From Hoplostethus atlanticus (taxonomy: Eukaryota > Chordata > Actinopteri > Trachichthyiformes > Trachichthyidae), in NCBI GenBank assembly GCA_034670405.1, contig JAXDDX010000001.1, forward strand, positions 18,808,501 to 18,872,500: DNA of 64,000 nt, written 5' to 3'. The notes under the pieces were generated by a model. That model was not told where the DNA came from, made no database searches, and was given only the letters and a program-made list of their open reading frames with translations. Shown here in pieces: positions 26,201 through 56,015 of the stretch; within the stretch, counting starts at the first letter, position 1; each line of letters begins with the position of its first letter. The translations under genes were made by a program, and so were the position numbers.

Positions 26201-27606
26201 AAGGTTTGTCTTGAAAATGTGGGGCTTCGCATTCCTCATTTCCTTAGATGAATGTGGAAAACAATCAAAATAGGTCAATAAGAGAAAAGTTATCTCTGGT
26301 AAAAACACCCTCATGAAGTGTAACGGTACATCTGGAGATACCTCTGGCTAGGGGAATATTGAAACAACTGGATATTGCAGTCTGGACACACAGCAGTTTT
26401 ATTACACGAAGTTGGGTATAGATGCAAAACTCTTCATCGAACTGAAAATGCAAAAGTCCAGACAATCAGAACAGCTGAAGATGAATAACCATAGGGCAGG
26501 ATTTGACACAGTCAATGAATGCGGTGTAATTAGAGTTCAGTGTGCAATCGCAATTAATTGTTTTATACCATCATTCAAATTAAGAACAACTAGTACTGAT
26601 TACTTACATCAATCTCTCCTTCATCAATCTCTCCATCATCCTCCTCCTTCTTCTTGTCTCGGAAGGAATCTCTCCGCCCCCTCTCTGGCCCTTTGGACTC
26701 CTCAGTCTTCTTGGACTGGTTGTGTCTTGGAGATGGAGGGAGGATGGGCTTCTTCTCCTTCTTTTTGCTACTGCTCTTGTCCTCTCTCTCCTCCTCTTCA
26801 TGCCCGTGCGGCTTGACGTCATCCTCGTCCTCCTCTTCCTCGTGCGCGGGGATGCTGGGCTCCTCGGGGACCTCCTCGTCATAATCCAGTTCGTGTTCGT
26901 CCAGCTCCCGGGAGACGGACGCCGAGTCGTCCTTCATCTCCCTCGCCACGACCGCCCTCCTCCTCCTCCTCTCTTCTTCCTCCTCCGCTCGCCTCCTGTC
27001 CTCTTCCTCCTCAGCCCTGTTCCTGTCTTCCTCCTCCTCCTCATCATCCAACTCTGCTGCCTCAGCACCAGGCTCTGCTGAGGTCTCCTTCCTGTTGTTC
27101 CCGTATCCCTCTTCTCTCTCTTCATCCTCCCCGTCTTCTATATCGTCTTCATTGAAGAAGCTCCTGCCCTGTTCTGGTTCTGAATCAGGAGACTGTGGGG
27201 TGTCAATGACTCTATCCTCTTCCTCCTCTCCTTCCTCCTCTTCAGGTGAATGGTTACCCTGTGGACCATCATCATCTCCCTCCATCAGCATGATGGCCTC
27301 GTCCTCCTGTCCCATCCCTCCTCCTTCTCCAGCAGGCCCTTCATCCTCTGGGTCAGAGATAAAATCAGGGACCACCTCGTCCTCTTCCTCCTCTAAATCT
27401 GAATCCCTTCCTCTACCTCGTACCCTTTCTTCTTCTTCCTCCTCCTCATCCTCCAATGCCCCATTCTCCTCATCGTGGTTTATCTCGTTGTCTGAGATGA
27501 CCCCGTCGTCCTCTTCAAGAGAATCCAGCAGCTCACTGTCAGAAATGCCCTTCTCCTCCTCCTCGGGCGACTGAGGGGACTGGGTAGGGCTTTCAGGAGT
27601 ATCCAT
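3851..27606 (-). CDS. zc3h18: zc3h18, zinc finger CCCH domain-containing protein 18 (12 coding exons, 3' end outside window)
   Basis: Spliced minus-strand gene. Joining 27606-26608, 25264-25180, 19606-19458, 19196-19101, 18707-18565, 18054-18025, 17213-17099, 16625-16351, 6923-6741, 5168-5043, 4663-4571 and 4270-3851 gives 904 codons plus two bases with every phase matching. Domain order: acidic Glu/Asp-rich N-terminus (1-333) containing the family block DEHELDYDEEVPEEP; one CCCH finger (C356-X7-C364-X5-C370-X3-H374); a conserved central block (about 412-539); an Arg/Glu repeat (540-600); an RS-type region (690-760); and a Pro/Gly-rich region (766-904). The human protein is about 950 residues and continues with a Ser-rich stretch and a basic C-terminus, which should lie left of position 1. 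Family knowledge: a nuclear factor that bridges the cap-binding complex/ARS2 and the NEXT-exosome RNA decay machinery. The identification is firm; exact splice choices at two tandem acceptors are not. Confidence 0.95.
3937..4120. repeat. Coding trinucleotide repeat (CCT/CCA/CTG) in zc3h18 exon 13
   Basis: Imperfect triplet repeat, purely pyrimidine-rich on the plus strand. It is read as GGN codons on the gene strand, giving a glycine-rich tract whose longest pure run is about 15 Gly. Being a multiple of three it does not break the frame. Confidence 0.9.
4571..4663 (-). CDS. zc3h18: zc3h18 exon 12, RS domain part 2
   Basis: 93 nt. Encodes SRSFSTSPSPSPAAPRNAKN and KPDLPPALAK. Phase 1 + 90 + 2. 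Acceptor TTTGTAG|ATCTCG, donor AAAGG|GTAACA. Matches the human RSRSFSSSPSPSP segment. Confidence 0.9.
5043..5168 (-). CDS. zc3h18: zc3h18 exon 11, RS domain part 1
   Basis: 126 nt. Encodes SSSRSSSYTGSGSSRSRSRS and SSFSSYSSHSSQRSSFSGSR, an RS-type region very similar to human. Acceptor GTCGCAG|GTCTTC lies right after an (AC)n microsatellite in the intron; donor CTCCAG|GTACGA. Confidence 0.92.
5178..5210. repeat. (AC)n microsatellite
   Basis: About 16 uninterrupted AC units, 10 nt from the acceptor of zc3h18 exon 11 (GT-rich on the gene strand, just upstream of its splice site). Confidence 0.95.
5401..5626 (+). other. Unrecognised 73-codon open reading frame
   Basis: An ATG-started open frame (MLTTPTTPGYTKSGLKQLIT...) of balanced composition lies in the intron between zc3h18 exons 10 and 11. 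I do not recognise a family. It could be a fragment of a transposon or chance. No splice or promoter evidence. Confidence 0.15.
6150..6530 (+). mobile_element. Tc1-like transposase fragment (degenerate)
   Basis: In broken frames the sequence reads like the N-terminal half of a fish Tc1 transposase: NPRITSRDLQAPIAA near 6330-6375, then EARKNLYGLKTTKLPVFCLP near 6408-6465. Several frameshifts and stops. Ends not located. Confidence 0.5.
6741..6923 (-). CDS. zc3h18: zc3h18 exon 10, DEWKDPWRRSKSP block
   Basis: 183 nt. Encodes RPMEPPVKKEVVPVMRR, then PDEWKDPWRRSKSPRRRPGV and a Ser-rich end. The PDEWKDPWRRSKSP block is diagnostic for ZC3H18. The acceptor is again a tandem CAGCAG (start 6923 or 6920; Asn-Arg versus Lys at the join). 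Donor TCCAG|GTAGGG. Confidence 0.93.
6924..11688. other. zc3h18 intron 9, right-hand part: no gene seen
   Basis: AT-rich intron sequence between exons 10 and 9. It has an AT-rich palindrome-like stretch near 7540-7830 and short local duplications (9398-9442; 10336-10380). A possible SINE-like B box (TTTGAATCCC) is near 8020. No supported coding sequence. Confidence 0.6.
9398..9442. repeat. Short direct duplication
   Basis: CTATTTATAGCTCTGAAAC occurs at about 9394-9412 and again at about 9424-9442. Confidence 0.8.
11996..12244. mobile_element. PIF/Harbinger-like MITE (249 bp, TTA target duplication)
   Basis: Terminal inverted repeats TAGTGCATTCCATTGCACTC and (complement of the right end) TGGTGCATTCCAGTGTACTC, about 22 nt each, flanked by TTA at 11993-11995 and 12245-12247. 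A 3-bp TWA duplication is typical of PIF/Harbinger. It is inserted in the older TTAA element. Confidence 0.75.
13243..13313. repeat. Perfect 32-nt palindrome
   Basis: Arms 13243-13274 and 13282-13313 are exact reverse complements with a 7-nt spacer. The arms contain the CCAAT-box-like core GATTGG/CCAATC. Located near the right end of the TTAA element. Confidence 0.95.
13931..14273. mobile_element. Tc1/mariner-type MITE (TA target site)
   Basis: Left end TAGTGCGGTCCAAAAGTCAG, right end (complement) CAGTGGGGTCAAAAACCAAG, each followed by a ...CACTACCA... stretch; a TA dinucleotide abuts each end. About 340 bp, AT-rich, no coding sequence. Confidence 0.7.
15652..16148. mobile_element. hAT-like MITE with 8-bp target duplication
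   Basis: Ends TAGGGGTGGGCGATATGAC... and ...ATCGCCCACCCCTA are inverted copies. CCGTCTCA is repeated at 15644-15651 and 16149-16156. 497 bp, containing an (AC)n microsatellite at 15997-16022. An 8-bp duplication plus this terminal sequence is typical of non-autonomous hAT elements. Confidence 0.88.
16351..16625 (-). CDS. zc3h18: zc3h18 exon 9, Arg/Glu dipeptide-repeat domain
   Basis: 275 nt. Encodes alternating RERERERD-type sequence, then RKEEWERDRMKRDEKE, and ends RSPINLPP plus two bases at donor CCCAA|GTAAGT. Predicted long single charged helix or coiled coil. The acceptor is a tandem CAGCAG, so the exon may start at 16625 or 16622, adding or removing one Gln without changing frame. The base composition is strongly biased because of the repeats. 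Confidence 0.9.
16796..16868. repeat. Three-copy tandem repeat (24 bp unit)
   Basis: TTCCTTATCGAGTCTGCCAG is repeated three times head to tail in the intron between exons 9 and 8. Confidence 0.9.
17099..17213 (-). CDS. zc3h18: zc3h18 exon 8, DPYADPYYDYE block
   Basis: 115 nt. Encodes DPYADPYYDYEMEALWRGGQ, then YENFRVQYTEAPLPYHYS. The Tyr-rich DPYADPYYDYE and RGGQYENFRVQYTE blocks are signature sequences of the family. Two overlapping donors exist (ACA|GTGTGA and AGT|GTGAGT); the second is stronger and keeps phase 0. Confidence 0.9.
17290..17450 (-). mobile_element. tRNA-derived SINE
   Basis: The minus strand begins with a tRNA-like head: A box TGGCTCAGTTGG (17439-17428) and B box GGTTTGAATCC (17393-17383). 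It ends with the AAAGCAGAAATGCCATA tail (17325-17305) seen in a widespread acanthomorph SINE family. It is not a tRNA gene: no acceptor stem closes. Confidence 0.8.
18025..18054 (-). CDS. zc3h18: zc3h18 exon 7, 30-nt microexon
   Basis: Encodes EMEFRDPIY with a split codon on each side. Acceptor TTTTTAG|TGAAATG and donor CTACGG|GTGAGT are both strong, and the phases fit exons 6 and 8 exactly (1 + 27 + 2 nt). I do not recall this segment in the human protein at the same place (there the text runs RDVRDTVLEPYADPYYDYE), so it may be a fish-specific or diverged microexon. Skipping it keeps the reading frame. Confidence 0.82.
18565..18707 (-). CDS. zc3h18: zc3h18 exon 6, VLKKATIRKEQEPD block
   Basis: 143 nt. 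Encodes VLKKATIRKEQEPDLEEKRF, then NVTIGEDEREFDKEND and FFRERSYRIIR; matches the conserved central region of ZC3H18. The donor was chosen at AGAGA|GTACGA. Only this choice leaves the two-base overhang that fits exon 7 and recreates an 'IIRD' sequence like 'IPRD' in the human protein. The reading frame stays open past the donor into the intron, so an unspliced reading would give a spurious longer exon. Confidence 0.88.
19101..19196 (-). CDS. zc3h18: zc3h18 exon 5, proline run and ESAWERGLRHAKE block
   Basis: 96 nt, phase 0 at both ends. Encodes a six-proline run followed by the highly conserved ESAWERGLRHAKE block of the family. Acceptor CCTCAG|ACTGGG, donor AAAGAG|GTAAAC. Confidence 0.93.
19458..19606 (-). 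CDS. zc3h18: zc3h18 exon 4, second half of the CCCH finger
   Basis: 149 nt exon beginning with the last two bases of the Gly codon, then NCTWGMNCRFIHPGVNDKGN and ending NNPW. It supplies C364, C370 and H374 of the finger. It is nearly identical to the human region around the finger. Acceptor CCCCCAG|GTAAT and donor CCTGG|GTAGGT. Confidence 0.94.
19790..20295 (+). mobile_element. Possible solo LTR
   Basis: A region of about 500 bp starts TGTTATGG. It has a TATA-like TGTATAAATGT at about 20103, then CATTAAAGG (a poly(A)-signal variant) at 20188 and a GT-rich segment: the order expected of U3-R-U5. The right end and target duplication are unclear (CGG on both sides at best). No internal retroviral sequence is adjacent. 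Confidence 0.3.
21222..21410 (+). mobile_element. Tc1-like element end (solo fragment)
   Basis: Same sequence family as the left end of the relic at 30310: AACAGCACATGATCAAACAA, CACCCTTTAGAACAA and TTGTTGGAGGAAATAGA are shared in order. An AT-rich slippage stretch (21282-21320) interrupts it. Confidence 0.7.
21993..22010. repeat. Poly(C) run
   Basis: About 18 consecutive C bases in an intron of zc3h18. Confidence 0.9.
22715..23455. mobile_element. hAT-like element nested in the larger transposon (8-bp target duplication)
   Basis: Ends TAGTGATGGGCGGA and (complement) AGGTGATGGGCGGA. GCTCGCTC is duplicated at 22707-22714 and 23456-23463. Removing it restores the left arm of the outer element. 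It carries an unusual hairpin cluster at 22916-23043. No coding sequence recognised. Confidence 0.8.
22916..23043. repeat. Overlapping perfect hairpins (26-nt and 48-nt arms)
   Basis: Hairpin A: 22916-22941 pairs with 22965-22990. Hairpin B: 22931-22978 pairs with 22996-23043. Both are perfect. They share bases, so only one can form at a time. The units are permutations of CGGACATCT/GAGATGTCCG. Confidence 0.95.
25180..25264 (-). CDS. zc3h18: zc3h18 exon 3, first half of the CCCH finger
   Basis: 85 nt exon encoding DDDLEEGEVKDPMDRK, IRPRPICRFFVK and the first base of a Gly codon. Acceptor TTTGGGCAG|GATGATG and donor CAAAG|GTAGTT are clear. The exon carries the first zinc-binding Cys (C356); the other ligands are on exon 4, so a phase-1 intron splits the finger. 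Confidence 0.93.
25886..26046 (+). repeat. Dispersed repeat, copy 1
   Basis: Shares GATCATACT.CAGGGCCTCAG, then TCATCTATGTGACACT with the copy at 29507-29642 in the same orientation. Spans an intron of zc3h18. Family not recognised. Confidence 0.7.
26608..27606 (-). CDS. zc3h18: zc3h18 exon 2, start codon and acidic N-terminus
   Basis: Encodes residues 1-333, starting MDTPESPTQSPQSPEEEE. The ATG (complement of 27604-27606) sits 14 nt inside the exon, whose acceptor is at 27620. The segment is extremely rich in Glu and Asp with Ser-Glu and Ser-Asp sites that suit casein kinase 2. It ends with DDGEIDEGEID just before the donor GAT|GTAAGT. The conserved family signature ASVSRELDEHELDYDEEVPEEP is present (written here in two pieces in the literature as ELDEHELDYDEE and VPEEP). 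Low-complexity acidic repeats make length variation between species likely. Confidence 0.93.
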
Positions 27607-27620
27607 CAGATAATGTTCTG

Positions 27621-28955
27621 CTGCAAACAGAAGAGCAATATACAGCCAAACCAATCAGATACTAATAGAGCTATTTTAGAGCAGCCAGAAGGCAAAAGGA
27701 CTTGGATCTTGATCATAAGCGTAACCTTATGTAACGCATAGCCCCAATACATGATGTTCTCCATCATCCATCTTTGGAACATCACTCTAAACGCCATGCA
27801 AAAAAGTGTCAATTTAATTTCGCCTTTGCATATCAGCAAATGTACATACCTGGGGGATTATGACTTAAGTACTTTTACGTATCTGTAGGGTCTGGTAAAT
27901 GTGGCATATAGATCATCCACTAAGCAGTACTTTATTTCAATAAAATCTGTTATAATTGTCTCATACTGCTTGCTACTGCCCTCCGTGGTGTATTTTGATG
28001 GAGGAAGAGTGTGGGAATAACAGGCAAAACAATTCTAAAAGTTCAAATGTTATTGCTTGGTCTACTGGATGTATGCCAAATTGAAGAGCGGCTCATAACA
28101 ACTCCTAACAGGTATTAAGACATGTTCAAATAGGAATGTACCTTTATGATTAGCAAGGCAACATTACACTGGCAATTTTAAAAAGGAGTTTGGCATAACA
28201 TTCCCCCCATACAATAGCGATACTGGGCTATGTATCACACATGTATGAAGGCTGGGTACTGATTTGGCCTTTCCATGAGCAAATAAATAAATAAAAACAA
28301 AACAAATCATGTTACCTAGCCAGCTAACAACCAGGCTACCTATTATGGCTACCTATATGACGATGGCTAAAACTTAATTTGCTCCTAATTTCTTGAGTGG
28401 GAAATATACCTAACTATGTGCACACAAACAACACATCGATGTTTTTAAATGCCACTTATGGTGTTACTTTCCTGTCATTCCCTGAGAGAAAAAAATACCC
28501 CAATTATCTAGCTAACAAACTGGCTGCATATATGAAAAGGTCTAAAACATAATTTCCTTCAAATACCTCAAGTGAGAACTATGTTATACATACTTGTGGG
28601 TACCTTGTAAACAACACGTCCAAGTTTTAGAATGCTAAATTAGTTAACATGCAGTGTCTGCTAACATTGTTGCTAATAGTTGGCTCGCGCTAGTTAGCAA
28701 CAACAAGGCCCAAAACCTGTCAACGCAAATCAAACTGGCTGACTAGTGATAAGCCTGCCATGATGAAACACCAAACCTTTCTTAAATACAATTAACCAGT
28801 AAACAGGCTAATTAAATGACATGACGACACGCACAATATTGCCGTATGATCCGACACGGTAGCATGCTCGCCTGTCTTTCAATTAACAATGCAACCTCCC
28901 CTTCTACCCAGTAGCTTTGCTAGCCTGCTAGCTAACAGCCACACATTTTATTCAC
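27621..28955. other. zc3h18: zc3h18 intron 1
   Basis: Single-copy-looking AT-rich intron between the non-coding exon 1 and exon 2, with no recognisable transposon or second gene. Contains GCTAGC/GCTAAC-type short motifs near 28900-28940, common in fish intergenic DNA. Confidence 0.6.
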
Positions 28956-37925: not shown

Positions 37926-40491
37926 CAACCCCGATTCCCAAAAAGTTGGGACGTTGTGTAAAACGTAAATAAAACAGAATGCGTTAATTTGCTAATCCTT
38001 TTTGACATATATTCAATTGAAAACAGTACAATGACAATATATTGTCAATATAATGACAGTATCTATAATATAATGTTTTATCTTATTAACCTTTTATCAA
38101 CTTCATTGATTTTTGTAAATATAAGCTTATTCTGAATTTGATGCCAGCAACACGTTTCAAAAAAGTTGGGACAGGGGCAACAAAAGACTGGGAAAGTTGT
38201 GGAATGTTCCAAAAACACCTGTTTGGAACATTCCACAGGTAAGCAGGTTAATTGGTAACAGGTGATAGTATCATGATTGGGTATGAAAGGGGCATCCTCG
38301 AAAGGCTCAGTCGTTCACAAGCAAGGACGGGACGACTTTGTGAAAAACTGCGCGGGCAAATAGTCCAACAGTTTAAGAACAACGTTTCTCAAAGCACAAT
38401 TGCAAGGAATTTAGGGATTTCACCATCTACCATAATATCATTAAAACATTCAGAGAATCCGGAGAAATCTCTGCACGTAAGGGGCAAGGCCGAAAACCAA
38501 CATTGAATGCCCATGACCTTCGATCCCTCAGGCGGCACTGTATTAAAAACCGACATGATTGTGTAAAGGATATTACTACATGGGCTCGGGAACACTTCAG
38601 AAAACCGTTGTCAGTAAACGCAGTTCGTTAAGACTCTACCATGCAAAGCGAAAGTCATATATCAACAACATCCAGAAACGCAGACTTCTCTGGGCCCGAG
38701 CTCATCTGAGATGGACTGACGCAAAGTGGAAAAGTGTGCTGTGGTCTGACGCAGGGGCGAATTAAAAGGCATGTTACTCCCCTCTGTTATAGTTAGCTAA
38801 CATTATCTAGCTAGCTACAACACTCACTAACTTTGTAACTTGCCAGGTATAATGTTAACAAAAATGACTGAAATGTCAGCTTCTCTCATGATAGCCAAAA
38901 AAGTACATATAATATCCTACAAATAAACCTGTTTCTCCATAGATGGAGATAAGAAAGTACTTGATGAAAAGCAGCAGAACCACAGAATGTACAGCAGCCA
39001 GGTAAGAAAGTGATCAGGCAGGACAGATGAGAGAGGAATCTTTGAAGTAGTACTATTTCACCATGATGAGACTACAACAGCTCTAAGATGTACCCCCAAT
39101 AGAACAGAACTACTGTTACAACTGGACCTTTGGCTGGATACGATATCCATGCAAAGTCAATGGATCCTTTAATTTGAACCTAACACACTAAAACAATAAG
39201 TGAAAGGAACCAGGTCCTTTGCATGGCATACCAGTCTGTTTCTCTGGGCTAAATCTATCACAGATTTCTTGTACCCTTCTGGAATATGTTGTATCCATAC
39301 CTCCTAAAAGGCTTTATGCACTATACAATAATATAATATAATAATAAGGAAAATATTGTTGAACTTAAAGCAAATTTGTAGTAAAAAACATTGGAAAAAT
39401 GAAAAACATGAGGAAAAAACATAATATTCCTATAACGGCAGTGAGTTTATAGTGAATCCTACTTGATGGTATTTTCTAACGTGCTATGGTATTCTTATAA
39501 TATTTCTATCGGGTCTTATTTTTTTAAATGATATTTATATACCTAGTATCCTTCTAAAATCTGTTCCAAGATACTTTAGTACCTGCTCCTCAGTGGTTTC
39601 ACTGAAACCTGAGTGTCATGGAGAGGATTTCTTGTCCCCTTCTTGACTACATTGTATCCATACCTCCTAAAAGGCTCTATGCAGGTCTATAGATGTTCTG
39701 GTCACTAGCTGTTGACCTACTAGTTTTACTCTATTTGAGTAAATCCCCTGGTCTGACGAGTCCACATTTCAAATTGTTTTTGGAAATCATGGACGTCATG
39801 TCCTCCGGGCTAAAGAGGAAAAGGACCATCCAGATTGTTACCAGCGCAAAGTTCAAAGCCAACATCTGTGATGGTATGGGGGGGTGTTAGTGCCCATGGA
39901 ATGGGTAACTTGCACATCTGTGAAGGCACCATTAATGCTGAAAAGTACATCCAGGTTTTGGAGCAACATATGCTGCCATCCAGACGTCATCTTTTTCAGG
40001 GATGTCCCTGCTTATTTCAGCAAGACAATACCAAGCCACATTCTGCACGTGTTACAACAGCGTGGCTTGGTAGTAAAAGAGTGCGAGTACTAGACTGGCC
40101 TGCCTGCACTCCAGACCTGTCGCCCATTGAAAATGTGTGGCGCATTATGAAGCGCAAAATACGACAACAAAGACCCGGAGAGCAACTGAAGTTGTATATC
40201 AAGCAAGAATGGGAAAGAATTACTCTTTCAAAACTTCAACAATTAGTGTCCTCAGTTCCCAAACGCTTACTGAGTGTTGTTAAAATAAAACTTTTTTGGA
40301 ACGTGTTGCAGGCATCTAATTCAGAATGAATGTATATTTACAAAAAACAATAAAGTTTCAGTTTGAACATTAAATATCTTGTCTTTGTACTGTAATCAAT
40401 TGAATATAGGCTGAAAAGGATTTGCAAATCATTGCATTCTGTTTTTATTTACATTTTACACAGCGTCCCAACTTTTTTGGAATCGGGTTTG
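37926..40491 (+). mobile_element. Tc1/mariner transposon, interrupted by an hAT-like insertion
   Basis: About 75-nt inverted ends (CAACCCCGATTCCCAAAAAG at the left; complement of the right end CAAACCCGATTCCAAAAAAG), flanked by TA at 37924-37925 and 40492-40493. The transposase reads in pieces: QIVQQFKNNVSQSTIARNLG (HTH, about 38348-38410), RRLLWARAHLRWTDAKWKSV (38685-38740), then after the insertion SVMVWGGVSAHGMGNLHICE (39866-39925), CLFQQDNTKPHSARVTTAWL (40010-40066) and DLSPIENVWRIMKRKIRQQR (40117-40176). DD and E-like catalytic region motifs are visible but frames are broken, so inactive. Confidence 0.9.
38752..39750. mobile_element. hAT-like non-autonomous element inside the Tc1/mariner transposase
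   Basis: Starts CAGGGGCGAATT and ends AAATCCCCTG; GTCTGACG is duplicated at 38744-38751 and 39751-39758. 999 bp, no transposase seen. An internal direct repeat of about 55 bp (39264-39320 and 39628-39681; TATCCATACCTCCTAAAAGG) lies within it. The insertion cuts the host element's transposase right after the LWSD motif. Confidence 0.9.
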
Positions 40492-45034: not shown

Positions 45035-45417
45035 ATGGCGGACAACGTGAGCTCCAGGATCGACACGCCGACCAACATCTCGCTGAATCCGAGCGACAGC
45101 GTCTCTGAATCCCTGGAGTACAAGACGGTGTCGGTGTTTCTGGTCCTGCTGGTGTGCGGCGTGGGCATCGTGGGGAACATCATGGTGGTCCTCGTGGTCC
45201 TCACCGCGCGCCACATGAGGACGCCCACCAACTGTTACCTGGTGAGCCTGGCTGTCGCCGATCTGACGGTGCTGGTGGCGGCCGGGCTGCCCAACGTCTC
45301 GGACAGTCTGACGGGCACGTGGGTGTTCGGCCACGCCGGCTGCCTGGGGATCACCTACCTGCAGTACCTGGGCATCAACGTGTCCTCCTGCTCCATCACT
45401 GCTTTCACCGTGGAGAG
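45035..45417 (+). CDS. trhr2: trhr2 exon 1, N-terminus to the end of TM3
   Basis: Encodes residues 1-127 plus two bases. The start is ATG at 45035 (G at -3 and G at +4, a good context). The open frame upstream back to 44996 has no ATG, so this is the first possible start. It contains TM1 (about 31-56), TM2 (67-87) and TM3 (104-125). The donor GAGAG|GTGAGG splits the Arg codon of ERY. Confidence 0.93.
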
Positions 45418-48400
45418 GTGAGGAGACAATTACAAGTCGCTCTCATTGCTGTGACGGAGGAGCTATTTTGTGAACTTTTCAGCTATTGGATTGTGGCCCA
45501 GTGGTTGAATGATTGGCATGAAGGCTCTCAGAGTTGGCATGCTGATCTCGGATCACTAACCAAATCCACTTTACCATCTCATTTACCAAAAACGATCAGT
45601 TCCTGCCTTGATAATTGGCCTCCCTGTTTGATTCAAGATGACCTGGTGTCTTTTGTCCGCCCAACCGGCGGTTCTCAACCACGTGAGACCCACAAGTCAG
45701 CAGGTTTCCACTCCAACAATACAGCAGCTCACTGATTAGCACCTTCAAGCAGAGAGGGAGCTAATAAGTGAAATCAGTTGCTGTAGCGTTTGGAATGAAA
45801 GCCTGCAGACTCTCGGGTCATGATGTCACGTGACACACTGCCCTGAAAGTTAGCATCTGTACATGGGAAAACGTTGCACAGTGGAATCTACTTGGTAAGC
45901 AGTTTGTTGCCAATCACAGACTACTGATTGCTGCAGCCTGATCTGATGTGATGCCTCCAAATGTAACACTTGAACTTTCATCACGTTAAGACCAGCCGCC
46001 GCCTCTCTCATCCGCAGGTACATAGCTATCTGCCATCCAATGAGGGCCCAGACGGTGTGCACGGTGTCCCGGGCCAAGCGGATCATCACCGGCGTTTGGA
46101 TCTTCACCTGTGTCTACTGCATGCTGTGGTTCTTCCTGGTCGACATTCAGGTCAGAGGAATACATTCTAAACTGCATGTTGCATTTCAGGCATTTAGCCG
46201 ACGGTCTCATCCAGAGTGACTCGCAAGGAGCTGCAGTGATGATTACAAGGCATTCAAAAATAAGGAGGGCAGGTCAGAGCCTTAATGCCCTTACAATGTT
46301 ACTGCGACCACAGAGTGATCATGTGCTAGGAAAGTGCGATGTGCAAGAACATGAAATAGAATGGGAGCTGGGGAAACAAATAGAAGGGATTTGGGTTTTT
46401 TTATCGTCACAAATTGGCCCATTTTGCAGGGGCTGCATAGTGTTTCAATCAATACTGTATATCAGTCATTAAAAAGTAAAGAAATACAAGTTATAGGAAG
46501 AGTGCAGATGATTGTACGATTGCACTTGAAATGACTCTCTCTTTAGAGTTTTTGATGCAGTAGCAAAGGAAAATGAAAAGGCAGCTTGAAAAGATGAAAA
46601 GATGAAAAGATGAGCTCTATGGCATTTCTGAGATCGATACTGCATTGTTGAGAGGGATGTGATTGTACCCATTACATGCATCTTAGCCAGTGTCCGAAAT
46701 TAACTTTTTGACTCACCTAAAAAAAAAAAAAAAGAGTAATTTTACCGGCCAAAATGATTCATGTACATTTTCCATAGGAATATGCCACTCTACCCATTTT
46801 CAATACTATTTAATGTATAGAATCGGGTCCTCTGTGTTAATTTGAACCATGCTCACTCACTTATACAGTGGGTCATGTTTGCAATTCATCATGAAGTGCA
46901 ACAAAAACAGAAGTTTCGACACTATTGCTTTGTGTAGAGTGACTCGACAGAGCTTGATACAGAGCCATTGTTTTGCTTTCGATTTGAATTGGCTCGCAAC
47001 TACGTGTGACACTCAGGTCAGCCAGGACGGACATGTGCAGTGTGGCTACAAGGTGAAACGGGAGCTCTACCTGCCCATCTACCTCATCGACTTCGCCATC
47101 TTCTACGTCGTCCCGTTGCTCCTCGCCATCGTGCTGTACGGCCTGATAGCACGGATCCTCTACCTGAGGTAACAGCCGCAGTCTGGCCGCCAACAGGGAT
47201 CGTGTTTAAGTCTTCATCAGCAAAACAGGGGGAAGGAAACGATTAAAAAATCACATGTCAGTGTGGTTCACCTCTGATATGATGATATGTTGATTGATTA
47301 AGTATTTAATTAAAAATTGATCAATACTACACTGGTTCTCTATGGGAAGCCATTAACCTGAATTGATTTTGATTGGATTCCAAGTAAGGATGAATGTATT
47401 GTTATTATTGTTGTAGTAGTAGTAGTAAGTATTAGTATCCTGGGTTTCAATGGAGAGTTGTAGTGTCCTGTGGTCTAAATTCTGGGGGAATTTTGTTGTA
47501 ATGAAAATGATCAAATGTAAAGATACTGAATATTGAGACAAACTATCGGCAAAATATTGACCCAGGCTTTCCAGACCTGCAAAGGAACCCTGCCAATACA
47601 ATTGATTACATATGATTAAACCCTAGTTTCTGCAACAATTTGCAATGCTCATGCCAACACACTAATCCAACCAACCAACCAACCAATCAATGCTTATCGT
47701 TCTCCATTGAGATGAATGGTCTTACATGCTGGGTTGTGTCCCCGCAGCCCTCTGCCCAGCCGCCCCGACACCGGCGCCACCGCGCTGCGGCGAAGTTGCC
47801 GGGAAGGCTCTGAACCGGGGAAGGGGGGTCGCCAGAGCCGGCCAAAGAGCGCGCTGTCCTCCAGGAAACAGGTCCGTGCGTCACCCCACAATCACCCCCC
47901 CTCCCGTCGCTACCCTGTCTTGTTGTTCCTATCTTGTTTTATCTATCAGGTAATTGCCGTATGATAGCTTTGGTCACATTTGACCCCTGGCCACGTCTTC
48001 GGCTGTGTGCGCGCTCTGCTGGGATTAGGGGGGTGGGGTGGGGGGGGGCATGATTCCCTCTGTACAGCGCGGTGATGATGCTCCCGCTGTCCATTGCCTC
48101 AGATAAGTGTCCTTTCATGGGCTCCGTCTCCCGGCTGTTCCCGAGGCCCCCGAGGGCACCGCGGCAGTAATGGTTTCTTTTCCTCGAGGCTGTGGAGTGA
48201 AAGGTTTCTTACCGAGGAGCCCTCAACCCCAGATTGTGTAGCTTTGTCTCTGTGCTCTTGGATGTAGAATACACTCCCTCTCTCAGGCTAGAATATGTTC
48301 TCTCCGTCTTAAGAGCCTCCACCTCTATATCCCTTTATCCACTCAAGAGGAAGGTCTTTTTTTTCCAGAAGTACTTTGTCTCTATATTATGGTATTTTAA

Positions 48401-51860: not shown

Positions 51861-54705
51861 TCCTTTGCGACTGCTAATGCTTCATCTGAAATGTAACGAT
51901 CATTCAAATCATCATGAAGCAATCAGAGCTAATCTGAGAAATTATAGCGATGCATCAGGCCATATTGCACTGGGCTTTGGGGCACAAATGTTTATCTGCT
52001 CATGCATTTCTACTTGGTTGTTTTGGATGAATATCAATGTAATTTCCGAGGCTAGTTGAAAACTCTAGTGCCGTACATATTTGTTTCCAGCCATTTTCAA
52101 CGCTGTAATATAAACCCTGTATTAGATGAAGTGCTACATGCATCGCTCATTCTTGAATGCTATGCGTAGCGTTTTAACATCAGCGAATCACATAAATGAT
52201 GAGAAATTACTGTAATTACCGTAAACAAACAAGACCATCATGGAGAAGATTGGCAGCCTCTACCAGCCTCTACACTGCACTTAACGTGTGTCACTGTTCT
52301 TCCAGCGCTAACGAGTTTCTAGCAACGGTGGAAAGAGTAAAGCCAGGGAGGGTTAGGGTTTAGAGAAGGCTCAGTGTATTCCAGCGTCCTGGAACCACCC
52401 TCCTCTATGCCACTACCTCTCCTCAGACTCAGTCCAACGTTACCCCTGGAGGGGATACGAACCCTATTTAGGGTAATGGACGGGGGTGGGGTGGGGGTTA
52501 ACCACCGGCTGAGTATGATCCCTGGTTTGAGATTTGAGTGTGTGTGAGTGTTTGTTCCCTATGCTTGACTGAAGGGCACTTAGCTAGCTAGCAGTACAAA
52601 CCCTCAATACCAAATACAAGCACTAACTCTGCCTACAGCTACAATGGAGTTCGATAGCAGTGAACTTCAGGGATCTAAACCATCAACATTTTCCATCAGA
52701 AACCATCAGAATCAAAGAGCAAGGGATTTCTTTTGTAGACTCACCGTTTTGCACTGATGTATGCACCAACAATCATACAGGGAGAAATTCATCATAGAAG
52801 ACAGAGAGATGAGGTGCCCTGGTGCCTCAGTGGTCTAAGACACATACCATGTAACCAACAGCAACATCATGGGTTCAAATCCAGGACCTGGACCTTTGTT
52901 GCATGTCGTCTCTCCCTACCCTTAACCGTCCAATAAAGGAAAAATGCCCAATAAATAATCTTTAATAAAAGAAGAAGACACAGAAATATCTCTCCACCGA
53001 CAGTACGCTCAATAGTCCACAATGCAATGCAGCCACAAGACATGTTCTGTTGAGTACAGGGCGTGACCCTCGCAATTGTTATTGGAAATACCCTCTCCAC
53101 CTACACGTTTAACCCACAGCTGAATGAAAGTTCACGCCCCTTCCCCGGGTGTTGTCGAAAGCCACTGTGTAGAGAAGGAAAGGTCACAATGCAGAAAATC
53201 TAAATTACTGTAGGAAATGTAGGAAATTAGATGTACACAAGGCATGTTGAGGGAAAGTGGTTACACCAACAAAGTAAATTACAACACTTCACAAAATAAT
53301 TTAATTCACTGAACATCACAGATTGATGACATTTAACGGAGTAAGAGTGGAAGGTGGATTTTTCCTTTAATGTTGAACATCACAGACTGATGACATTTAA
53401 CAGTGTAAGAGTGGAAGGTGGGTTTTTCCTTTAATGTTGCTCTCTGCTTGTGCTTCCCACCTGTAGGTGACTAAGATGCTGGCTGTGGTTGTGATCCTAT
53501 TTGCCCTGCTATGGATGCCGTACCGTAGCTTGGTTCTGATCAACTCTTTCATGTCCACGCCCTATCTGGACGCTTGGTTCCTCCTGTTTTGTCGGACCTG
53601 CATCTACGCCAACAGCGCCATCAACCCCGTCATATACAACGCCATGTCCCAGAAGTTCCGCTCGGCATTTCGCGGGCTTTACCGTTGCCAGCGGCCAGAG
53701 GGAAACCAGAGGTCGCTGTCAATGATCCAGACTGGTTACAGCACCGTCCGAGACCCACGAACCTCCCTGCCCAATAGCAATGGAACCAAAGAAAAGGCCA
53801 GAACGGCGACCCTTTGTATTGCCATGCGCATGGTCACAAAGCAGAATGGAAGTGATCCTCTTGAGGCAACCACACACAATGGCAGGAAAGCAGAAGATTG
53901 CATCGACACCAGCCCCGCTGCTTTCATCTTTGGTATGGATCCCGTTGAAACCTTGCCACCCAGTGATAGGAAGGACGTGGAACCAACTAATCTCTCTTCA
54001 TCAAATGATAGCAGAGCTTTAGATGTTACCGACACCCTCACAGCAAATGATCAGGGGGGAAAGAGACATGTAAATATTTCCACATTAAATGATAGGAAAT
54101 CTGTGGATTTGACAGAATCCCACTCAGCCCACCCTGACACATCGTTATCCAGTGAAAAGAAAGCTGTGGGCTCTGCAGAACTCTCCTCATCCAGTGACAG
54201 GAAAGCTGTGGGCTCTGCAGAACTCTCCTCATCCAATGACAGGAAAGCTGTGGGCTCTGCAGAACTCTCCTCATCCAATGACAGGAAAGCTGTGGGCTCT
54301 GCAGAACTCTCCTCATCCAATGACAGGAAAGCTGTGGGCTCTGCAGAACTCTCCTCATCCAATGACAGGAAAGCTGTGGGCTCTACTGTGAGGTCCACGG
54401 AACTCGGTTCATTCAATGACGTGAAAGCTGTGGCTTACTCATGCATAGGGTCTTCTTTAGATAATGATAAAGGCGAGAGGAAACCTGGTGACCTCCACTC
54501 ATTCAATGATATAAAAGTAGTGGATTATATAGAGTCCTCCTTGGACATTGATGTTAGGTGTAAAGATCCCATTAACTCTGGTACAGAACGGAAAGACTCA
54601 GATTGCTGGATGGACGATAGAAAAAACACAACCAATGATGGGATCACATTCACCCCTGGCCAAAGACAGAAAAGGAGGGATGCCACGATTCATACTGTGG
54701 TGTAG
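45035..54705 (+). CDS. trhr2: Thyrotropin-releasing hormone receptor, TRHR2 type, with extended C-terminal tail (5 coding exons)
   Basis: Joining 45035-45417, 46018-46150, 47017-47168, 47748-47871 and 53467-54705 gives 676 residues with all phases matching. It is a class A GPCR of the plasma membrane that binds TRH and, by family knowledge, couples to Gq/phospholipase C. Seen in sequence: two N-terminal NxS/T sites (N4, N14), GN in TM1, D76 in TM2, a C103-C181 disulfide pair, Y111 and N115 in TM3, ERY at 127-129, WMPY at 280-283, R307 and NPVIY at 317-321. These match the ligand-contact residues known for TRHR (Tyr106, Asn110, Tyr282, Arg306 in TRHR1). [11 protein letters not shown] and GHAGCLGIT resemble TRHR2 more than TRHR1. 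The tail from about residue 340 is far longer than usual and contains a 14-residue tandem repeat. Whether it is trhr2 or another fish paralogue needs a tree. Confidence 0.93.
45655..45835. mobile_element. Possible diverged foldback hAT fragment
   Basis: CGGTTCTCAACCACGTGAGA, CAGCAGGTTTCCACTCCAAC and TCACTGATTAGCACC follow the same order as the foldback element at 41101. A partly inverted right side ends near 45830. Lies in trhr2 intron 1. Confidence 0.4.
46018..46150 (+). CDS. trhr2: trhr2 exon 2, second intracellular loop and TM4
   Basis: 133 nt encoding [20 protein letters not shown], then [20 protein letters not shown] and VDIQ. Acceptor TCCGCAG|GTACAT, donor ATTCAG|GTCAGA. Phase 1 + 132. 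Confidence 0.93.
47017..47168 (+). CDS. trhr2: trhr2 exon 3, second extracellular loop and TM5
   Basis: 152 nt encoding [20 protein letters not shown], then [20 protein letters not shown] and [10 protein letters not shown]. It contains C181 for the TM3-ECL2 disulfide. Acceptor CACTCAG|GTCAGC, donor CTGAG|GTAACA. Confidence 0.92.
47748..47871 (+). CDS. trhr2: trhr2 exon 4, third intracellular loop
   Basis: 124 nt encoding [35 protein letters not shown] and LSSRKQ, a basic loop. The SSRKQ end directly before VTKMLAVVV is a TRHR signature. Acceptor CCCGCAG|CCCTC, donor AAACAG|GTCCGT. The frame fits on both sides. Confidence 0.92.
49366..49610 (+). repeat. Dispersed repeat family (AAAGGTGCGATATGTAAC), copy 1
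   Basis: Starts TTTAAAGGTGCGATATGTAA, then GTAGCACAAAATGACCA, ACTCAACC and CTGGCTTTCAAAACTCA. The same blocks appear inverted at 60795-60992 and partially at 49896-49980. Confidence 0.75.
49896..49982 (+). repeat. Dispersed repeat family, partial copy 2
   Basis: TAGCACAAAATGACCATAAT, TCTGTGGAGGGGGG, GATCAATACCAGTAACTCAA: same order as copy 1 but truncated. Confidence 0.7.
50014..50088. repeat. Compound (TAT)n(TTG)n microsatellite
   Basis: About 15 TAT units, one GTT interruption, then about 9 TTG units. Confidence 0.95.
50220..50270. repeat. (GT)n microsatellite
   Basis: Long GT run with a single GCAC interruption. Confidence 0.95.
51651..51687. repeat. (TTTCC)n microsatellite
   Basis: Five to six CCTTT units grading into CCTTCCTT. 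Confidence 0.9.
52808..52965 (+). mobile_element. tRNA-derived SINE
   Basis: A box TGGTGCCTCAGTGG near 52820, B box GGGTTCAAATCC at 52871-52882, followed by GGACCTTTGTTGCATGTCGT and an AATAAAGGAAAAATGCCCAA tail. Same family as 17290-17450 in the other orientation. Confidence 0.8.
53311..53438 (+). repeat. 64-bp tandem duplication beside the trhr2 exon 5 acceptor
   Basis: Copies 53311-53374 and 53375-53438 (GAACATCACAGA..GATGACATTTAAC...TTTTTCCTTTAATGTT) differ at only a few positions. The duplicated 3' end is pyrimidine-rich and ends 28 nt before the acceptor. Confidence 0.93.
53467..54705 (+). CDS. trhr2: trhr2 exon 5, TM6, TM7 and long repeat-bearing tail
   Basis: Encodes residues 265-676. 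TM6 ([20 protein letters not shown]) and TM7 ([20 protein letters not shown]) are very conserved, followed by [13 protein letters not shown] (helix 8 and a possible palmitoylated Cys). After a short conserved QTGYSTVRD segment the sequence becomes low-complexity, Ser/Asp/Lys-rich, with degenerate 'NDRK-V' units and five near-identical 14-residue repeats (54154-54363). The stop TAG is at 54703-54705 after RDATIHTVV. The acceptor CTGTAG|GTGACT is 28 nt downstream of a 64 bp tandem duplication. Confidence 0.92.
54154..54387 (+). repeat. In-frame 42-bp coding minisatellite in the trhr2 tail
   Basis: Units start at 54154, 54196, 54238, 54280 and 54322, with a truncated sixth at 54364-54387. The peptide unit is [14 protein letters not shown]; the first copy reads EKK..SSSS. 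The four middle units are nearly identical at DNA level, which points to recent expansion. Confidence 0.95.
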
Positions 54706-54943
54706 AAACAGGTCTACCTTATAAAAAATATTTTTCTGACATGTCTGCTTTATTTGACACCCTACAACAGAGGGTGACAGGAAAGAGAGAGCATGACTTA
54801 TGGCAAAGGTCATAAGCCGGATTTGAAACCTGCAACCTCACGTGGTTATTTCCCTTAGCCTTGTCTAATGCTGCCTAACACTGTCACATATTATTCTACA
54901 CAGGAAATTTGATATTTTACGACTTTAACATTCTTAACCTGAG

Positions 54944-54949
54944 AATAAA
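54944..54949 (+). promoter_or_regulatory. Candidate polyadenylation signal for trhr2
   Basis: AATAAA 239 nt after the stop codon, the first canonical hexamer downstream of it. Inferred from position only; fish 3' UTRs may run much further. Confidence 0.4.
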
Positions 54950-56015
54950 ACATTAGAAATAGAGAGAGGATGAAGACTGCTACCTTTTGATACGCTTGTG
55001 AATAGTTTGTAACGTTGAAGGTGCTCATTTGTTTTGGGATTATGAAGGAGACCATATTGTTTAGCCGAGTCAACTTTGGTGAAATATACAGTCCTTGAGA
55101 ACGACCTAGCAGAATTGAAAGGCAGGGGTGGAAACGCCATGGAAGTGTTACTACTTTTTAAATAGGATTTATTTGGAAAACCTTGATTCATGGACACAAT
55201 CAAGACTTGGTTGAGAATAAGCACTTCAATGAGCAACACAAGGATTAATTGGAGTGGAGAGATTTGGGCTTTTAATGAACACAGATTTATTGTACAAAAT
55301 GTATTGTTAAAAATTCCTTTAATTTGTCTTCATCATTAACATCATTATCAACAATACCAAAAACAGCAGTTATCGTAGTCATCATTCGTCACTACTCACC
55401 AATGGTTTCCTCACATTCTCCTTCAGTCAGTCCAAGGCTTCTCTGTTCATTTAAGGAGACGACCCCCTGCTGGTTGTCAGGCTCAGAGAAGGCGTTTGAT
55501 TTGATGTTGGGACAGAGCTCACCATTCAGTCAGCTTTAATGGTCGTTAATGAAACCAGCACACTACTTTCCTCATTGCACCATTTCCTGTCTTTTAAACA
55601 GAAAAGGTATGTTTAAAATAAGAATAGCAACCTAGAACTATAGAGACTGACTAGCGTCTTGCTGGTTGTTTGGTCCTTTATTTGGATAGGGATCAAATTA
55701 ATTTGGATAAGGATAAAATACTGATATTTTTGGATTGAAGATAGTTGATATTTTGTGATAATTTTGTGTAGTATTCAGAATTTTATTCTTGACAGGTTGG
55801 AAAAGCCTCTGAAACAGTATTTAAATATGGGAGACCAAAACTTTTTGAAAGTTTCTGACAAAAAATCCAATATCAGCCCGATATATTGGTATTACCCTTT
55901 TGGTCTGAGAGGGTTTGTTCCATATGAAACCTCCTCACCCTCCTCATGCTCACTAAAACAAACAACATGAGGAGTGTTGGGAATGCTGGGGGGAAAGCTT
56001 GAGTGATCATGAAAC

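Follow-up and report, generated by a model that had tools for sequence, protein, structure and literature searches.

A repeat-extended cytoplasmic tail with a predicted PDZ-type end in the TRHR2 gene of Hoplostethus atlanticus

Why would a fish receptor for thyrotropin-releasing hormone (TRH) end in a cytoplasmic tail of several hundred residues, and what might such a tail do? We addressed this question for a TRHR2 gene of Hoplostethus atlanticus within a stretch of 64,000 nucleotides (contig JAXDDX010000001.1, positions 18,808,501 to 18,872,500; hereafter the window, from whose first letter all positions are counted), in which an initial annotation had pointed out a giant, repeat-bearing tail. 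We found this feature to be real, old, and richer than first noted: while the repeat tail alone would be a modest observation, it is joined by a C-terminal HTVV, a predicted class-I PDZ ligand that the initial annotation had overlooked, and by the absence of such an end from the percomorph models examined.

The gene is complete on the plus strand, with five exons (Table 1), a spliced frame of 676 amino acids (aa), and internal exon ends that are all AG/GT. The Arg codon of its E-R-Y motif is split by the intron between exons 1 and 2, and an intron at the ERY motif is reported for TRHR2 of rodents and fishes in a passage of PMC3151243. Scanned separately from the rest of the protein, exon 5 matched Pfam 7tm_1 at its start (35.8 bits, cut-off 30.5), and its closest solved structures were the TRH receptor chains 7x1t and 7wkd (E 8.8e-35). 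Among the best 120 of 739 database matches, which together with four proteins from a tail-profile search form our homologue set and represent a sample, the named ones were nearly all fish TRHR2 or TRH receptors, next to some "hypothetical" or unnamed products and one "galanin receptor 2b-like" entry. The seven-transmembrane (7-TM) core was 82.6-94.1% identical to those of 33 relatives hand-picked from these 120 (P0011 was dropped, its helix-8 pattern being missing), with the highest value for Polymixia TRHR2, and a tree of the cores grouped the window with Lampris at a weak support of 0.56. The named fish matches, the core identity, the five-exon model, and the ERY intron bear out the earlier assignment, and by sequence the gene is a teleost TRHR2. 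Upon searching the fish's own genome (56 matches), we found three other TRH-receptor-like exons at E < 1e-32 that are 61-63% identical (L002, L003, and L004), with tails after NPxxY of 83, 45, and 75 residues; a long tail is thus present only in the window's exon among the four, when the paralogues, which may have downstream exons, are read to the first stop. In the Myripristis murdjan model (P0001), the SPLPSRPD...SSRKQ exon that corresponds to the window's exon 4 is missing and an unrelated stretch, GINLVHKEIHLTCGPLMYLSSHLQ, stands in its place, probably through an annotation error.

The tail is part of a genuine open frame. Exon 5 is open from 53467 to 54702 (412 aa) and closes with a TAG at 54703-54705, which leaves 338 aa past the YRC cysteine of helix 8, or 354 aa past NPVIYN. 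For 334 open codons the chance by base composition is 2.3e-8, and none of 20000 base shuffles stayed open as long (longest 181); the other two forward frames across the tail stretch contain 12 and 31 stops. The frame and stop position described initially hold. Because the stretch had been chosen for being open, homology is the better evidence for coding than composition. The Myripristis murdjan TRH receptor, with 370 residues past NPIIYN, aligns in frame along the window tail at 57% identity, and P0002, with 314 residues after NPxxYN, does so at 47%. These are the related long tails to which the initial annotation had looked for support, and judged by such alignments the exon 5 tail is coding and is an old, length-variable region rather than a peculiarity of a single genome. 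A minus-strand frame at 54054-54434 was rejected as a gene and taken as a by-product of the repeat (homologues not sought), and no Rfam match indicative of a structured RNA was found across 53400-55500.

How unusual its length is depends on the relatives chosen. The initial annotation had taken the family tail to be a few dozen residues long, which may fit mammals but not teleost TRHR2. Counted from the cysteine, the median among named percomorph rows is 111 aa (interquartile range 104-118, from the 77 of 80 rows that could be measured). All but one of the 18 ostariophysan rows fall within 148-175 aa, the exception having 50, and 26 of 27 named non-percomorph rows have 97-354 aa, the remaining one being a partial model with 50. 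In rat, a passage of a review describes the TRH-R2 tail as shorter than that of TRH-R1 (PMC9485831). Four percomorph models, P0010, P0022, P0024, and P0071, show tails of 212-403 aa (P0024 and P0010 without 14-aa modules by eye); we suspect them to be fused or mispredicted.

The last three residues of the window protein fit the class-I PDZ-ligand consensus, S/T-x-hydrophobic at the C-terminus, as given in a section of a review (PMC10604838). An end of the narrower form [HY][ST]x[VIL], expected by tail composition at ~0.001, was found in 32 among the 124 database proteins and the window: it occurs in 22 of the 27 named rows from outside the percomorphs, in 9 of the 17 unnamed rows, and in not one of the 80 percomorph rows with a name; three of the latter have another S/T-x-V/I/L end. 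It is carried by 16/18 rows of Ostariophysi, 3/4 of Salmoniformes/Esociformes, and the single osmeriform, galaxiiform, and lampriform row each, and lacking among non-percomorphs in P0082, the partial P0093 and P0100, Polymixia P0003, and Myripristis P0001. In these counts the rows are not independent, as some species are present two or three times (e.g., Channa argus, Xyrauchen texanus, and Silurus meridionalis), some percomorph models are partial or apparently mispredicted, and the sorting into clades follows the genus names, with five species checked (including Myripristis as Holocentriformes, Lampris incognitus, and Aplochiton as Galaxiiformes). A passage of a review describes TRH receptors as being without a predicted PDZ ligand (PMC3521152), a statement at odds with the fish TRHR2 ends reported here. 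Among the open-licence papers listed for TRH receptors, we saw none that describes such a tail or its end motif, and an earlier description elsewhere is possible. A TRHR2 group comprising P0062, P0068, P0077, and P0092, which branches outside the sampled acanthomorphs in the core tree (with weak support) and lacks the PDZ-type end, bears on the timing of the loss of the motif.

The HTVV end belongs to a larger distal block. When the last 42 aa were aligned with the C-termini of P0001, P0002, P0041 (Lampris incognitus), and P0081 (Aplochiton, Galaxiiformes), the scores were reached by 0/2000 shuffles, and without the target's last four residues they were reached by 0 (Myripristis), 0 (P0002), 0 (Lampris), and 1 (Aplochiton) of 2000. 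Lampris keeps the distal ~40 residues in a tail of only 97 aa without the module array (a predicted model that could hide an unrecognized exon stretch), indicating that the block and the repeats evolve separately; a protein search with the Lampris tail returned only Lampris itself.

At the other end, the proximal tail is common to percomorph TRHR2. A profile built from 43 hand-picked tails (42 named percomorph rows and P0124) aligned with its positions 1-117 of 121 to window tail residues 1-122 (53689-54054) at 125.4 bits, compared to a median of 85.4 and a maximum of 92.5 bits for 100 decoys in which the first 60 residues were kept and the rest shuffled; when aligned to P0001, P0002, and Polymixia, it extended only to its positions 98, 99, and 104. 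As the match ends at about 54054, the percomorph tail models stop at a position matching the third module of the window, TLTANDQ, and lack everything beyond it, the PDZ-type end among the missing parts; these models speak for the annotated proteins and not for the downstream DNA. A pairwise mapping of percomorph C-termini, which placed 25/44 ends in module 3 versus 18/44 in a shuffled control, was uninformative.

Between these two parts lie the repeats. Tandem Repeats Finder (TRF) reported a single array at 54147-54384 with a unit of 42 bp (14 aa), 5.7 copies, and 98% matches; in the 5' to 3' direction, its first unit carries three differences and its second one, followed by three perfect 42-bp units and a partial unit, which looks like the outcome of recent in-frame tandem duplication. 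Over the whole tail, the residue autocorrelation at lag 14 was 0.287, versus at most 0.129 at any lag from 5 to 30 in 400 shuffles. With the array excluded, the stretch before it showed an identity of 0.185 at lag 28 that was reached by 0/400 shuffles, and the stretch after it showed no significant periodicity (0.141 at lag 14, reached by ~41/400 shuffles), which makes the four more modules of 14-15 aa that we cut there by hand (54403-54576) uncertain. The amplification of an older module, as proposed initially, is well founded in the 14-aa periodicity and in diverged modules at exact 14-aa steps. The "NDRK-V" unit named initially corresponds to a 14-aa word; the array proper spans only 238 bp, and the remainder of the extra tail is older, diverged sequence.

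A similar period recurs in some relatives. Of the seven long tails analysed, six had a lag-14 identity above that of every one of 400 shuffles, namely those of the window, P0001, P0002, P0037, P0050 (Osmerus mordax), and P0089; no such signal was seen in P0081 (Aplochiton taeniatus), P0003 (Polymixia lowei), four ostariophysan, and two percomorph tails, and the salmonid and pike tails showed a 9-aa period instead (3/3 tested). With a module matrix built from P0037, P0050, and P0081, the best score on either side of the array was reached by 2/500 shuffles each, and that of the whole tail by 5/500. Because some of the 30 training units of this matrix are proximal SNGT-type words rather than true modules, and its top hits in P0087 (a salmonid) and P0014 were such words, we use these scores as a rough guide. 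Repeat words dominated the tail-profile search, which gave 11 hits including 4 new proteins. It is likely from these comparisons that an old 14-aa unit is common to osmeriforms and the window's fish, although convergence could also have produced the resemblance.

Table 1. Coordinates of the TRHR2 exons and of the parts of the cytoplasmic tail in the window (CDS, coding sequence; TM, transmembrane helix)
Feature	Position	Strand	Evidence
TRHR2 exon 1 (start codon, N-terminus, TM1 to ERY region)	45035..45417	+	tblastn with four relatives; GT donor; open spliced CDS
TRHR2 exon 2	46018..46150	+	tblastn with four relatives; AG/GT ends
TRHR2 exon 3	47017..47168	+	tblastn with four relatives; AG/GT ends
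TRHR2 exon 4 (third intracellular loop, SPLPSRPD...SSRKQ)	47748..47871	+	tblastn with four relatives; AG/GT ends
TRHR2 exon 5 (TM6-TM7, helix 8, entire cytoplasmic tail, stop)	53467..54705	+	proper acceptor, no internal stop
Proximal tail after YRC cysteine (QRPEGNQR...NGRKAED...), common to percomorph TRHR2	53689..53949	+	percomorph tail profile, 125.4 bits
Four diverged 14-aa modules; percomorph tail models end within the third	53950..54117	+	module matrix hits at exact 14-aa steps; periodicity
Young 42-bp tandem array, 5.7 copies	54147..54384	+	TRF; unit list; local pattern search
Possible further diverged modules, 14-15 aa, weak	54403..54576	+	hand cut; one matrix hit at 54451
Distal block of the 42 C-terminal aa, retained by relatives whether or not they have the array	54577..54702	+	alignment versus 2000 shuffles
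C-terminal HTVV, class-I PDZ-ligand pattern (S/T-x-hydrophobic)	54691..54702	+	sequence; consensus from a section of PMC10604838

What, then, could the tail be for? We suggest, as an account that we regard as somewhat more likely than not, that the repeat-extended and disordered tail serves as a flexible tether carrying a PDZ ligand. The tail consists of three parts, namely a proximal part common to TRHR2 relatives, a spacer predicted to be disordered, and the conserved distal block ending in HTVV. The spacer, made at least partly of 14-aa modules, would gain and lose units through tandem duplication, while the HTVV end may be caught by a PDZ scaffold beneath the membrane that would hold or recycle the receptor; the repeats would then act through their number, which determines how far the tether reaches, and not through a sequence-specific signal. 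A section of a review proposes that a long disordered tail gives G-protein-coupled receptors (GPCRs) a wider capture radius for their PDZ partners (PMC10604838). A predicted structure of exon 5 showed coil throughout the tail, with a predicted local distance difference test (pLDDT) score of mostly 41-57 and of 59-63 in the last 22 residues (overall mean pLDDT 53.0, predicted template modeling score 0.26); as this model is without TM1-TM5 and of low confidence, it agrees with disorder rather than establishing it, and the tail is disordered by prediction. Several observations weigh against the tether. Tail length is not conserved, and Myripristis, the closest named relative by tail, ends in PGVV without Ser/Thr at -2, while Polymixia ends in AVYSRE and the percomorph rows do without the motif. 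The distal match of P0037 is carried by its last four residues only (5/2000 shuffles with them, 180 without), and the block is not clearly similar in smelt P0050 (334/2000 shuffles), pike P0088 (53/2000), or the three ostariophysan rows P0083 (milkfish), P0098, and P0106 (161, 174, and 634 of 2000). Furthermore, a profile of 30 other C-terminal 22-mers missed the window end (-2.3 bits; 336/2000 shuffles score as high), although it picked out P0002 (8.6 bits, best shuffle 6.0).

A rival account is drift, by which the tail past its proximal part would be dispensable disordered sequence, slippage or unequal exchange would make the coding minisatellite grow and shrink, and the end motif would be a fading relic. 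The wide range of tail lengths among species given above fits such a process, as do the different 9-aa unit in the salmonid and pike tails, the early ends of the percomorph models, and the near-identity of the window's array units, which fresh slippage would leave. Since Myripristis has lost the Ser/Thr and PDZ binding is deduced from the motif, drift remains a serious rival. Two patterns are nevertheless at odds with it: Lampris, Aplochiton, Myripristis, and P0002 all retain the distal block despite variable repeats, and the [HY][ST]x[VIL] end persists in most of the ostariophysan and salmoniform/esociform rows; on balance we consider drift a possible but rather unlikely explanation. An artefact, in which exon 5 would be misassembled or the tail spliced out of real transcripts, appears very improbable: near-identical 42-bp units are prone to copy-number misassembly and the Polymixia and percomorph models end early, but Myripristis and P0002 have a matching tail of similar length with the same end region, and exon 5 starts at a proper acceptor and is free of internal stops.

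The initial annotation had itself offered a function, in which the Ser-rich repeats would add phosphosites that alter arrestin binding and desensitization. The tail does contain 78 Ser/Thr among its 338 residues, arrestin binds two phosphorylated tail regions in mammalian TRHR1 according to a passage of a review (PMC3521152), and PxPxx[P/E/D] codes exceed the shuffled expectation in P0002 (9 versus 5.8±2.2) and P0081 (7 versus 3.7±1.7). In the window, however, compared to 200 shuffles, both PxPxx[P/E/D] (2 versus 6.8±2.4) and PxxPxxP (0 versus 4.0±2.1) fall below expectation, the long arrestin code is near it (8 versus 6.7±2.2), CK2-type sites are slightly above it (15 versus 11.7±2.7), and PKC-type sites are few (6 versus 10.7±2.8). 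The same review, in the passage concerned, also describes distal phosphosites alone as insufficient for desensitization and internalization of TRHR1 (PMC3521152). As arrestin-type codes are not enriched, this functional proposal gains no support; for the window we discarded the idea that the repeats serve to supply arrestin or kinase motifs, and we regard the phosphosite account as improbable.

Beyond the tether account, a broader scenario can be sketched, which we put forward tentatively and with clear reservations. Non-percomorph TRHR2 would be PDZ-scaffolded, with a tether length set by a fast-changing coding minisatellite, whereas percomorphs would have lost the entire scaffold-binding end by an early stop, rewiring a neuroendocrine receptor from anchored to free at that point of the tree; the window's species would have one of the longest tethers, with a repeat number that is probably polymorphic. 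If fish TRHR2 does have a PDZ ligand, its trafficking rules would differ from those of the mammalian model receptors, and the percomorph loss would amount to a natural deletion experiment. Length-changing repeats between better-kept ends would also make the capture-radius idea, as set out in a section of PMC10604838, testable by species comparison.

Elsewhere in the window, upstream of TRHR2, a stop-to-stop frame at 39814-40326 (plus strand) matched the DDE_3 endonuclease family (Pfam PF13358, 49.9 bits) and is, by this match, probably a DNA transposon remnant. Two overlapping open frames at 26593-27654 (minus strand, 354 aa) and 26885-27571 (plus strand, 229 aa) had no Pfam match at E 0.001, and we suspect them to be repeat or low-complexity DNA.

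In comparison with known systems, mammalian TRHR1 has a short tail. Its likeness to the window protein runs from TM6 to the proximal tail, the region matched by the solved TRH receptor structures (7x1t). Percomorph TRHR2 shares with the window the 7-TM core, the proximal tail, and the ERY intron as reported for fish TRHR2, but its tail has a median of 111 aa versus 338 in the window, and of the two only the window has the 14-aa module array and the PDZ-type end. Myripristis murdjan P0001 resembles the window in its long tail (354 aa past the cysteine), the 14-aa period, and the distal block, and differs in that its modules are diverged, by eye without near-identical units, its end is PGVV rather than HTVV, and its model lacks exon 4. 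The salmonid and pike TRHR2 proteins P0084, P0087, and P0088 (Coregonus, Salvelinus, and Esox) likewise carry tandem repeats within the tail and end in HTVL or YTVL, whereas their unit before the end is 9 aa long (GQNEIKSTP or GQTEINSTP type) and their tails measure 169-173 aa. Among GPCRs with a C-terminal PDZ ligand, of which the beta2-adrenergic receptor is an example, an S/T-x-hydrophobic end is displayed on a disordered tail as in the window, where binding is predicted from sequence; the window protein differs from them in its repeat-built spacer of variable length.

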